NCBI GenBank assembly: GCA_028285265.1
Contig: JANQPX010000020.1
Location: forward strand, 62,001-126,000
DNA from: Geminicoccaceae bacterium
GTDB lineage: Bacteria > Pseudomonadota > Alphaproteobacteria > Geminicoccales > Geminicoccaceae
Direction of reading: 5' to 3'
DNA length: 64,000 bases
Every line of letters starts with the position of its first letter. The stretch's first letter is position 1. A program made the position numbers and the translations under genes. Positions 1-10,593 of the stretch are shown piece by piece. The notes under the pieces are model-generated. The model had not been told where the DNA came from. It did not search any database and saw only the letters and a program-made list of their open reading frames with translations.

Positions 1-62
1 TCACCATCTGCGACTAACTCCAATCTAATTCACAAACATGTATAGGCCATCCACACAGCCCC

Positions 63-1877
63 ATGAGTGACGTATTCTTTCCTATTGTTGGCTGCGGTGG
101 TGCGCGTATTGCGACCGTTCGCTGCGATTGCCTGAACGCTAAAGACTATCCCGCCGGTCGAGCATTAGTCCTTGCGCGAGATGAGCAGGAGATTGAGCGC
201 ATCCTTGCTGACGCGCGATCCGGTGAACCAACGGGTGCCGAAATTGCGAGACCGATTTGGGTCCGTTTCATGCCACAGCAATTCACGGGAAAAAGCTATG
301 GCTTGGCCTTAGCGCTGGCAGACAAACGGGCACGCTACCGCTCCAAGTTTACAACCCCAAATGACCGCATCTTTGCAACAGGCCTGATCATTGAGGACGG
401 TTTTGGTCGCGTTGGCCAGGTTGAAGCCTTTGAAGAAAAACTGAAGGCAATCGTCGACGATGCCATGCCAGGCAACATTGTGATATTGCCGCAAGAGAAT
501 GTCGACGCCGCCTCCGTTCGAGAACAAGGGTTACTTGATCGGCTCATATCTCTAGGCGTCATCTGCCGCGTGATTGCAAGGCTGGATGAGCTTGCAGACC
601 TCTACGCTTCATTGGAAGAGTCATCACGGATTAATGCCCCTCCAGATGGCACAACGGACGAGAGGCAACCAGTCTTTTCGGCGGCCGGACCTGCCAGCTC
701 AAGGGGTGGTGTTGAAGAGCTTGCTCTTCAACCCGAAAGCAGGCGGGGCTCGGCGCTGAGCCCACGCGGGCTCGCGATGTCTTTTGTTGTCATGTTATTG
801 ACAGGATTGACCGCCTTCGCTGCAGGCAATTGGTTTGGTGGCGCCAGTCTTGTGACATCCTATGCAGGCGAGACCGCGTCTACAGAGCAGGGTGGTGGCG
901 AAAATCTTTTGCAAAATCCCTCCTTCGAGCAAGGAGAGGGACAACAACCGGTTGGCTGGATCACCTTCTCTCGCGGCAAGCATGACCACGCCGATTATGT
1001 CAGATCCGGTGGCATTGATGGCTCACTGGTGTTGGAACACCGAAGCGAGAAGGCTTTCTATGTCGACACCCACCAAGTGCTAAATGTGCCAAAGGGGTAC
1101 TATGCATTCTCTGCCTGGGTGAGTTCGGAGGGCGACCGGAAAGCCCATCGTATGCGAGCGAGGGGCGATGATGCTGTCGAGATCGACATTCCAATCACTG
1201 CGCCACATAGTTTTCAGGAACTGAGCATCCATTGCATCGAAGTGACCGAAGGACGCCTGGCCGTCGGATTCTACATGGATGCTTTCAAGACAAGCTCAGC
1301 TGCCTACGACAAGGTCGAAGTTGTCGAGAGTTCCAGGGCTGCCGATGGTAGCGATTGTGCTGAAGCTGGCTCCACCGGCGATATATCGATGAAGGTCTTT
1401 GATGGCGAGAATCTCGTGGAAAACCCGTCCTTCGAGCGAAGTCACGATCAGAATCCGATAGGTTGGGGCACATTCTCACGTGGCAAGTATGACCATGCCG
1501 ACAGCGTCCAGCCAGGTGGAATCGATGGATCCTTCGCGCTGGAGCATGGCGGTGACGAGGCCTTTTACGTCGACACCTATCAAGTCCTTTGGGTTCCGAA
1601 TGGCTATTATGCCATGTCAGCCTGGATCAACACCGATAGCGTCGACAAGGTCAATCGGATGTATGCGCGAGGCGACCACGTCATTGAGCTGGACATTCCC
1701 AAAACGGCAGCCGGTGGATACCAGCAGCTTCAAATCCACTGTATCAAGGCGAGCGAAAAGAAGGTCGTGGTAGGCTTCTACACCGACACGCATCAGGCCA
1801 GCGTGGTGTCCTACGATAATGTTCAGCTTGTCCAACATGATCAAACAGCAGATGGAACCCGCTGCGCCGAGAGCTAG
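63..1877 (+). CDS. Membrane-anchored Lon (S16)-like domain protein with two lectin-like repeats
   Basis: 604 residues. Residues ~65-180 can be laid over the proteolytic domain of Lon: GKSYG sits where Lon has GPSAG (catalytic Ser, here S78), then FATG for MTG, GRVGQVEAFEEKL for the GGLKEKL block (catalytic Lys, here K126), and IVILPQENV for VLIPxEN. No AAA+ module is present. One hydrophobic segment (~239-257) follows, then two homologous ~150-residue domains (~280-435 and ~449-602) that open with NPSFE and resemble galactose-binding/CBM jelly rolls. The expected topology is Lon-like part in the cytoplasm, lectin-like repeats in the periplasm. No strong Shine-Dalgarno precedes this ATG, so the start is moderately certain. 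It converges on the ABC operon. The Lon relation is my own by-eye alignment; the substrate is unknown, and the domain could be an inactive S16 fold. Confidence 0.7.
   Translation: MSDVFFPIVGCGGARIATVRCDCLNAKDYPAGRALVLARDEQEIERILADARSGEPTGAEIARPIWVRFMPQQFTGKSYGLALALADKRARYRSKFTTPNDRIFATGLIIEDGFGRVGQVEAFEEKLKAIVDDAMPGNIVILPQENVDAASVREQGLLDRLISLGVICRVIARLDELADLYASLEESSRINAPPDGTTDERQPVFSAAGPASSRGGVEELALQPESRRGSALSPRGLAMSFVVMLLTGLTAFAAGNWFGGASLVTSYAGETASTEQGGGENLLQNPSFEQGEGQQPVGWITFSRGKHDHADYVRSGGIDGSLVLEHRSEKAFYVDTHQVLNVPKGYYAFSAWVSSEGDRKAHRMRARGDDAVEIDIPITAPHSFQELSIHCIEVTEGRLAVGFYMDAFKTSSAAYDKVEVVESSRAADGSDCAEAGSTGDISMKVFDGENLVENPSFERSHDQNPIGWGTFSRGKYDHADSVQPGGIDGSFALEHGGDEAFYVDTYQVLWVPNGYYAMSAWINTDSVDKVNRMYARGDHVIELDIPKTAAGGYQQLQIHCIKASEKKVVVGFYTDTHQASVVSYDNVQLVQHDQTADGTRCAES
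903..1868 (+). repeat. Internal duplication of a ~150-residue lectin-like domain
   Basis: The two halves of the C-terminal region share NLxxNPSFE, GWxTFSRGK, HAD, GGIDGS, AFYVDTxQVL, VPxGYYAxSAW and the IHCI block in the same order. This is a tandem duplication within the gene. The DNA copies have diverged, so the duplication is not recent. Confidence 0.85.
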
Positions 1878-9284: not shown

Positions 9285-9801
9285 AGGAGAAGGCCTTTGA
9301 CTTGAGGGCAGACAACAGACGCCATCTTATCGTTTAATCTGGATGAATCGTCCAGGTTAATTAGCCATCTGAATGGGTTGCATTTCTGACGAGATCTCGA
9401 GGCCGCACGGAGGCACGCCAATTCATCGCCTCGGCAAAAATCGACTGCGTGAAGCAGGTCTGATTTCCGACATGTAGAGCGTGAGCTTTCCTCGGTCGAT
9501 CACTCGCACGTCGTGTCCCGATTGCAGCCCGGTGACCGAGACCGAGGGGGGGAGCCCATCCCCATTGCTGGCGTGTTGATCGACGGCTTCGCCTCCGGCC
9601 GTCGCGCTACCAATCTCTCATGACGTGTTACGACTTCGCCCATGGCATACGACAACGCCCCCAATCAAGACTTGCCATTTGCAACCGTTGCGCATCACCT
9701 TTGAGGTAACCAACGGTCTGACCGACGGTGGACTGATCAAGCAGCTGCGTTTCAGGGATCAGCGGGAGCGTCGTCGCCGCGGCAGGCAAAAGGAGATGGC
9801 T
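9285..9801. other. Divergent intergenic region, no supported gene
   Basis: About 517 bases between the RND operon and the hydratase-like gene. Apart from the palindrome at its left side I see no RNA gene or repeat. A stop-bounded minus-strand reading frame of about 65 codons (around 9430-9620) looks protein-like in composition but has no plausible start and no recognised domain. Confidence 0.4.
9334..9360. promoter_or_regulatory. Imperfect palindrome upstream of the RND operon, putative operator
   Basis: Arms TTAATCTGGA and TCCAGGTTAA are complementary at nine of ten positions and separated by 7 bases. The site lies 50-76 bases upstream of the adaptor ATG, where a TetR-type efflux repressor would bind. 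No regulator gene is adjacent, so the binding protein is unknown. Confidence 0.45.
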
Positions 9802-10593
9802 ATGCTGACCAAAGCAAAAGAAAGAGAGGCTGCGAGCTTGATTGCTCAACATTGGGAGGAGGGCAGCCAACTTCATACGCTTCCCGAGCTCCTCCGTCCG
9901 GCGAGTCGAAGGGAGGGTTACAGCATTCAGGCACATTTCGAAACAATGAGTGCACAGCCTCTTTTTGGTTGGAAGATCGCAGCGACGTCTGACGGCGGGC
10001 AACGTCATATCGGCGTAGATGGGCCGCTTGCTGGCCGGCTCCTAGCGGAACGCGTCATCGCCGCAGGCGACATCCCCTCCCTTCGTGGGAATCATATGAG
10101 GGTAGCTGAACCAGAATTTGCCTTTCGGATGGCAAAAAGCTTACCGCCGCAGACGTTACCCTATGAACGAGCCAAGGTCTTGACCGCAGTTGATACGCTA
10201 TTTCTCGGGATTGAACTTCCCGATTCGCGCTTTGTCGACTTTGCCAACGTCGGTGGTCCTCAGCTCATCGCCGACAATGCCTGTGCCCATCAATTTATCC
10301 TTGGCCAAGAAGCCGCCGAAGATTGGAGAGCATGCGATCTCAGTCGGCAGCATGTTTCAATAGCCGTTGCCGATGGCATCCGACATGAAGGGAGCGGTGG
10401 TGCCGTGCTAGGAGATCCGGTCGCCGCCCTTGTGTGGCTGGTCAACGAACTCCGTTCGCTCGACATAACACTGGAACGGGGCCACGTCGTTACCACAGGC
10501 ACCGCGACGATCCCTTTGCCGATCGAGCCGGGTCATCACATCACCGCCGATTTCGGCCACCTTGGCCAGATCCAACTTGAGATCGCCAGCTGA
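9802..10593 (+). CDS. 2-keto-4-pentenoate hydratase / FAH-fold family enzyme
   Basis: 263 residues from an ATG with an AGGAG site 6 bases upstream; the longer ORF-track start is in non-coding-like sequence. It shows the MhpD-like layout: REGYSIQAHF, GWKIAATSDGGQ, the PEFAF metal-binding region, GIELPDSRF, then GDPVAALVWL and a C-terminal TTGTATIPLPIEPG. Family members hydrate 2-hydroxypentadienoates in meta-cleavage pathways or decarboxylate related oxo acids with a divalent metal. No other meta-cleavage gene is next to it, so the substrate is open. Confidence 0.85.
   Translation: MLTKAKEREAASLIAQHWEEGSQLHTLPELLRPASRREGYSIQAHFETMSAQPLFGWKIAATSDGGQRHIGVDGPLAGRLLAERVIAAGDIPSLRGNHMRVAEPEFAFRMAKSLPPQTLPYERAKVLTAVDTLFLGIELPDSRFVDFANVGGPQLIADNACAHQFILGQEAAEDWRACDLSRQHVSIAVADGIRHEGSGGAVLGDPVAALVWLVNELRSLDITLERGHVVTTGTATIPLPIEPGHHITADFGHLGQIQLEIAS

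Follow-up and report, generated by a model that had tools for sequence, protein, structure and literature searches.

A protein joining a diverged Lon-like domain, a predicted membrane helix and two carbohydrate-binding-like repeats in a Geminicoccaceae genome

The question raised by this locus is whether a single bacterial protein joins a Lon-type domain, devoid of the AAA+ module, through the membrane to duplicated carbohydrate-binding-like domains, and whether its inner part could cleave a target, as was proposed in a previous reading of the sequence alone (hereafter, the sequence-only reading). The window, that is, the whole stretch of 64,000 nucleotides that was analysed, corresponds to positions 62001-126000 of contig 61 of the host assembly, which has a size of 8.5 Mb in 81 contigs, with 98% completeness and 7% contamination. 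The other genomes listed for the family are of 2-6 Mb, and part of the host assembly may be foreign. The features under study are detailed in Table 1.

Table 1. Position of the features within the window, and basis for each of them. Residue numbers refer to the 604-aa protein and Lon numbering to that of E. coli Lon.
Feature	Position	Strand	Basis
Gene B (P0003), 3' end	1..28	+	Flank from host genome
P0001, 604-aa protein	63..1877	+	ORF; paralogue with common start and purifying selection
Diverged Lon-like (Lon_C / S16-type) domain, residues 1-185	63..617	+	hhalign with decoys and leave-one-out
S78, register of Lon S679; kept in paralogue	294..296	+	Superfamily alignment
T106, register of Lon T704; kept in paralogue	378..380	+	Superfamily alignment
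K126, register of Lon K722; Cys in paralogue	438..440	+	Superfamily alignment
Predicted single membrane helix, residues 236-256	768..830	+	Hydropathy, flanking charges
Carbohydrate-binding-like repeat 1; C391 inside, C432 just after	903..1325	+	Internal repeat, weak PDB matches
Carbohydrate-binding-like repeat 2; C560 inside, C601 just after	1407..1847	+	Internal repeat, profile, cysteines

Coding status, architecture and genomic context

The ORF of the 604-aa protein is intact and starts with ATG. This start codon is backed by a paralogue located on contig 34 of the same genome (L030:9001-9549, 182 aa, 54% identical to residues 1-182), which begins with the same residues, MSDV. Comparison of both sequences yielded NG86 values of 0.39 for dN and 3.4 for dS (near-saturated), and 61, 44 and 120 differences at codon positions 1, 2 and 3, respectively, the third position accounting for 120 of 225. 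The low dN and the third-position excess indicate that both the 604-aa ORF and its paralogue are constrained coding sequences. The ORF is thus confirmed as real and the anatomy described in the sequence-only reading holds, with a Lon-like domain, a linker, a membrane helix and two beta-sandwich-like repeats, in this order. The lack of an AAA+ module, also claimed there, was borne out, as no Pfam match to such a module was obtained in the 604-aa protein and about 50 residues separate the Lon-like domain from the helix.

The presence of one membrane helix, as previously claimed, agreed with the hydropathy computed for this region, with a mean Kyte-Doolittle value of 1.96 at residues 237-255. Of the 30 residues on its N side four are K/R, compared with none of the 30 on its C side, and an N-in/C-out topology is predicted by the positive-inside rule.

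Repeats 1 and 2 are 56% identical, with 46, 26 and 87 differences at codon positions 1, 2 and 3, respectively. Each repeat has one pair of cysteines (C391/C432 and C560/C601), 41 residues apart in both cases and all beyond the helix, which would fit disulfides outside the cytoplasm. The repeat profile was searched against 177,635 PDB sequences, and the top two matches were both stretches of glycoside hydrolases, the C-terminal stretch of the GH31 alpha-glucosidase 5x7o (E=0.005) and 2xom, a 152-residue chain from a GH53 galactanase (E=0.097); for one of them the alignment took in almost the full repeat, its N-terminal NPxFE included. No match of the repeats to a Pfam CBM family was obtained. 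The duplicated, carbohydrate-binding-like domains noticed in the sequence-only reading are supported by the identity between repeats and by these matches to solved relatives, all of them weak; their carbohydrate binding is putative.

The gene is the third in an operon-like run of three co-directional genes, the first two of which, designated A and B, are placed upstream, outside the window except for the 3' end of gene B. Gene A (L029:8461-9480) encodes 339 aa with a TTG start, its true start being uncertain, and gene B encodes either 193 aa from the first ATG (L029:9447-10028) or 183 aa from the ATGA overlap (9477-10028) that joins both genes; 34 nt separate gene B from the 604-aa gene. Genes A and B showed no Pfam, NCBIfam or PADLOC family match and no significant PHROG match. 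No paralogue of them was found in the host genome, so neither accompanies the stand-alone Lon-like paralogue. The C-terminus of the gene A product (ARAYYLSHGISKRRFYRLLREA) resembles a helix-turn-helix by eye. The identification of gene A as a sigma factor was unsupported, with an hhalign score of 13.6, lower than its own best shuffles, in what was a weak test based on five ECF sigma factors of the host. Downstream, on the opposite strand, genes for amino-acid-type ABC transporter permeases and a binding protein are followed by an RND pump; they were assigned by reading of their sequences and, for the RND gene, additionally by a separate search.

The N-terminal Lon-like domain and its catalytic positions

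Residues 1-185 did not show any match above threshold in Pfam, NCBIfam or PDB sequence searches. The curated Lon_C model (PF05362, MEROPS S16) did not match the 604-aa protein in Pfam searches up to E=5, nor is the protein among the four Lon_C matches of the host genome. Sub-threshold matches to the PADLOC families CRISPR-Lon and CARF-Lon were obtained on residues 69-129, at non-significant E values of 0.06-0.07; both families are S16 domains, as expected for this family and this place in the protein, and no other Lon family produced an HMM match to it, however weak.

A profile of the Lon-like superfamily was built with the Lon_C matches from the host genome and 60 genomes of the phylum, together with divergent relatives, which were sorted by sequence into four families: the LonA, LonB-like, RadA-like and ComM-like groups. 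The N-terminal domain of the 604-aa protein and the paralogue were used as a two-sequence alignment for the hhalign query. Against LonA alone, the P value was 0.005 and the probability 7%, and against the four-family profile the score was 37.2, with P=3.7e-5, a probability of 71% and residues 8-185 alignable. The latter profile was built only after the LonA-only result had been seen, and the score is to be judged by shuffles, window decoys and leave-one-out analysis. The maximum was 21.8 for 300 column shuffles and 20.7 for 92 window decoys, the reversed alignment scored 17.6, and scores of 33.3-35.4 were maintained whichever of the four families was dropped. The pair of lectin-like repeats and the two upstream proteins scored 12-13 against the same profile. 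Pairs drawn from the four known families scored 61-120 against the other three, which makes the N-terminal domain, with its 37, an outlier of the superfamily. Profile comparison identifies residues 1-185 as a diverged Lon-like domain, with a superfamily relationship far above that of the decoys. The Lon-like block proposed in the sequence-only reading was thus recovered by the profile-profile comparison of residues 1-185 that had been suggested along with it, but not with the length of about 115 residues assigned to it, since the domain reaches over residues 1-185.

Structure models were not usable. Those obtained with AlphaFold for the N-terminal domain (two-row alignment) and for repeat 1 had pLDDT values of 53.5 and 53.8, respectively, both too poor, the first one for any analysis of catalytic geometry. 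Foldseek searches of both models against the PDB gave no match at E<=0.001, and no recognisable Lon or CBM structure among the top 50 listed. In the N-terminal domain, most of residues 1-101 had a pLDDT under 50, so little can be read from the failure of its search, and neither the AlphaFold nor the Foldseek output was counted as evidence in any direction. In this poor model, the secondary-structure elements follow by eye the same order as in Lon_C, which does not constitute a test.

With respect to the catalytic positions, the serine and lysine pointed out previously, S78 and K126, do fall in the register of the Lon dyad, and E125 aligns on Lon E721, the Glu of the E721-K722 pair. In the merged alignment, the S679, T704 and K722 positions are occupied by Ser, Thr and Lys in both LonA and LonB; RadA sequences have Phe at the T704 position and Arg at the K722 position, and ComM sequences have Leu/Ile and Ala/Thr/Leu, respectively. 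Lon D676 and the GG at 717-718, which precedes the Lys helix, have no counterpart in the 604-aa protein. Its Ser motif, PQQFTGKSYG, with the core GKSYG, fits neither that of LonA (PKDGPSA) nor that of LonB ((E/D)GDSA(S/T)) (PMC2605481), in agreement with the earlier remark that the surroundings of the Ser differ from those of Lon. The protein was filed with the ATPase-free Lon-like proteins having a sensor, outside S16, because the subfamily Ser motif and the curated Lon_C model were both tested and neither matched.

Identity to the paralogue is 73% over residues 1-95 and 33% over residues 96-182, the half that bears the Lys, and the Lys is not singled out by conservation between the two copies. 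Conservation of Ser and Lys among homologues, on which the proposed dyad had been made to depend, was therefore found for the Ser and not for the Lys (Cys) in the only relative detected. With Ser, Thr and Lys, the 604-aa protein could be active, whereas the paralogue, with Ser, Thr and Cys, is probably inactive by the same Ser-Lys dyad. Protease activity of the 604-aa protein is plausible but hypothetical.

Distribution and proposed function

The paralogue is a stand-alone protein, without membrane helix or repeats. It is flanked by genes for two related proteins (L030:3952-5790 and L030:11704-13299), both with a substrate-binding-protein-like front part; the first has a C-terminal OmpA domain and the second is alike by eye.

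Apart from the host genome, no relatives of the N-terminal domain were found in 192 related genomes. The 385 class genomes searched gave none that was credible; their matches at E 0.007-0.1 covered short, scattered stretches and were treated as chance. Likewise, apart from the host, relatives of the full-length protein were not found in 32 genomes of the family, nor were relatives of the repeats in the 385 class genomes. Neither plasmids nor phages nor viral contigs yielded relatives of the N-terminal domain; viral contigs yielded none of the full 604-aa protein or of the repeats, and the searched plasmid, phage and viral contig sets none of genes A and B. A first scan of GTDB genome contigs retrieved nothing. 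In a second scan, poorly conserved residues were masked with X to steer the octamers used, and four loci (L069-L072) were obtained; they were rejected, as they encode acyl-CoA ligase/carrier proteins that have the octamer KAIVDDAM in common with the query. These loci had come through the tblastn check with E values of about 1e-5, which calls for caution with pattern-selected matches. Pattern-based scans require a common short peptide and diverged relatives can escape them, so relatives in other genomes may have been missed. The same architecture, which according to the sequence-only reading was to be looked for elsewhere, was found in none of the other genomes searched, and the case is weakened by its dependence on one genome and one paralogue only.

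Our main reading, to which we assign a probability of about 40%, is that of a single-pass inner-membrane receptor with a cytoplasmic Lon-like output. The two beta-sandwich-like repeats, presumably stabilised by disulfides and located either in the periplasm or on the cell surface, would recognise a ligand, with a glycan as the most probable candidate, and binding or clustering would be relayed through the single helix to the Lon-like domain, which would work without an ATPase of its own. The likeliest output would be a limited, clustering-dependent cleavage of a partner protein by the S78/K126 dyad, favoured here by analogy with CalpL and YlbL, and genes A and B, the co-directional pair upstream, would encode the first candidate targets. 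A more complete scheme, in which an outside glycan switches on the ATP-independent Ser-Lys cleavage of an operon-encoded regulator and thereby alters expression, is unlikely.

By analogy with other Lon-like domains, a scaffold role is about as likely as clustering-dependent cleavage. The domain would no longer be a protease but an oligomerising or binding scaffold like those of RadA and ComM, the protein signalling or anchoring by protein contact. Consistent with this, the paralogue retains the fold yet has Cys for Lys, conservation is concentrated in the first 95 residues and not around the Lys, and the Ser motif and the GG region are unlike those of all the proteases compared; however, the 604-aa protein keeps the equivalents of Ser, Thr and Lys, together with the Glu next to the latter, which RadA and ComM do not. 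Given the Lys to Cys replacement in the only relative, the poor conservation of the Lys half and the uncertain model, cleavage of a target by the inner part, as formulated in the sequence-only reading, is considered hypothetical.

Uncertainty also affects the ligand. It is quite possible, although somewhat short of even odds, that the repeats bind a protein, a lipid or a metal and that the protein is an envelope-stress or contact sensor, since the matches to carbohydrate enzymes are weak (best E=0.005), beta-sandwich folds serve many ligands and the repeat model is poor; against it, glycoside hydrolase stretches ranked at the top among all the PDB sequences searched, one over nearly the whole repeat and its NPxFE start. 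Much less probable is a superficial resemblance to Lon, the N-terminal domain being another alpha/beta fold. The lack of above-threshold matches in HMM libraries and PDB sequences and of Lon structures among the listed Foldseek matches would agree with it, but the Foldseek search was hardly informative at such pLDDT values, and a true relationship is favoured by the score of 37, which exceeds the decoy maximum of 21.8 and survives the removal of any one family, as well as by the whole-length register.

Comparison with known systems

In size, the repeats are similar to ancillary domains of glycoside hydrolases (GH31 5x7o and GH53 2xom), to which they show a weak similarity and, in the case of 2xom, the same NPxFE start; in contrast to them, they are found as two near copies, each with a Cys pair, on a membrane helix and a Lon-like domain. 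RadA/Sms and ComM also have diverged Lon-like domains, which form part of the same superfamily profile but have no equivalents of Thr and Lys and mostly none of Ser, while the 604-aa protein has all three. The Lon-like domains of RadA/Sms and ComM are joined to ATPase modules. LonA and LonB have an AAA+ module in the same chain, unlike the 604-aa protein.

YlbL of Bacillus subtilis consists of a TM segment, a PDZ and a Lon_C domain, that is, an S16 protein without AAA+, with one membrane helix and a putative Ser-Lys dyad (S234, K279), and acts on YneA, a membrane protein mostly outside the cell (PMC6051672). The 604-aa protein similarly combines one membrane helix, a Lon-like domain with a putative Ser-Lys dyad, no ATPase and an extra binding domain, but its Lon-like domain lies on the N-terminal side of the helix, with a predicted cytoplasmic location, and carbohydrate-binding-like repeats are present, whereas YlbL has an N-terminal helix and a PDZ. 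In CalpL, a Lon-SAVED protein of type III CRISPR systems, the ligand oligomerises and activates the Lon domain, which cleaves the anti-sigma partner CalpT (PMC11417357). Like CalpL and the CARF / 2 TM / Lon proteins of PADLOC, the 604-aa protein has a Lon domain without AAA+ fused to a putative ligand-sensing domain. CalpL and CARF-Lon have SAVED or CARF domains for cyclic oligoadenylate, whereas the sensor of the 604-aa protein is predicted to be extracytoplasmic and no SAVED or CARF match was obtained in its C-terminal region with Pfam or PADLOC. CalpL is accompanied by an anti-sigma factor and by a sigma factor of the ECF type, while genes A and B are not recognisable as such; since gene A cannot be recognised as a sigma factor, the CalpL/T/S gene content is unmatched.

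ATPase-free Lon-type effectors are thus already known in CRISPR signalling (CalpL) and in the clearing of a membrane-bound cell-division inhibitor (YlbL). If the main reading is true, a Lon-type domain, through its link to an extracytoplasmic binding domain, would have been co-opted as the output module of a surface receptor, the sensor being the new element. Since this Lon-like domain is below threshold in all the family and PDB libraries searched, others may hide among hypothetical proteins. Should its inner domain have retained proteolytic activity, the 604-aa protein would represent a new kind of receptor-protease.
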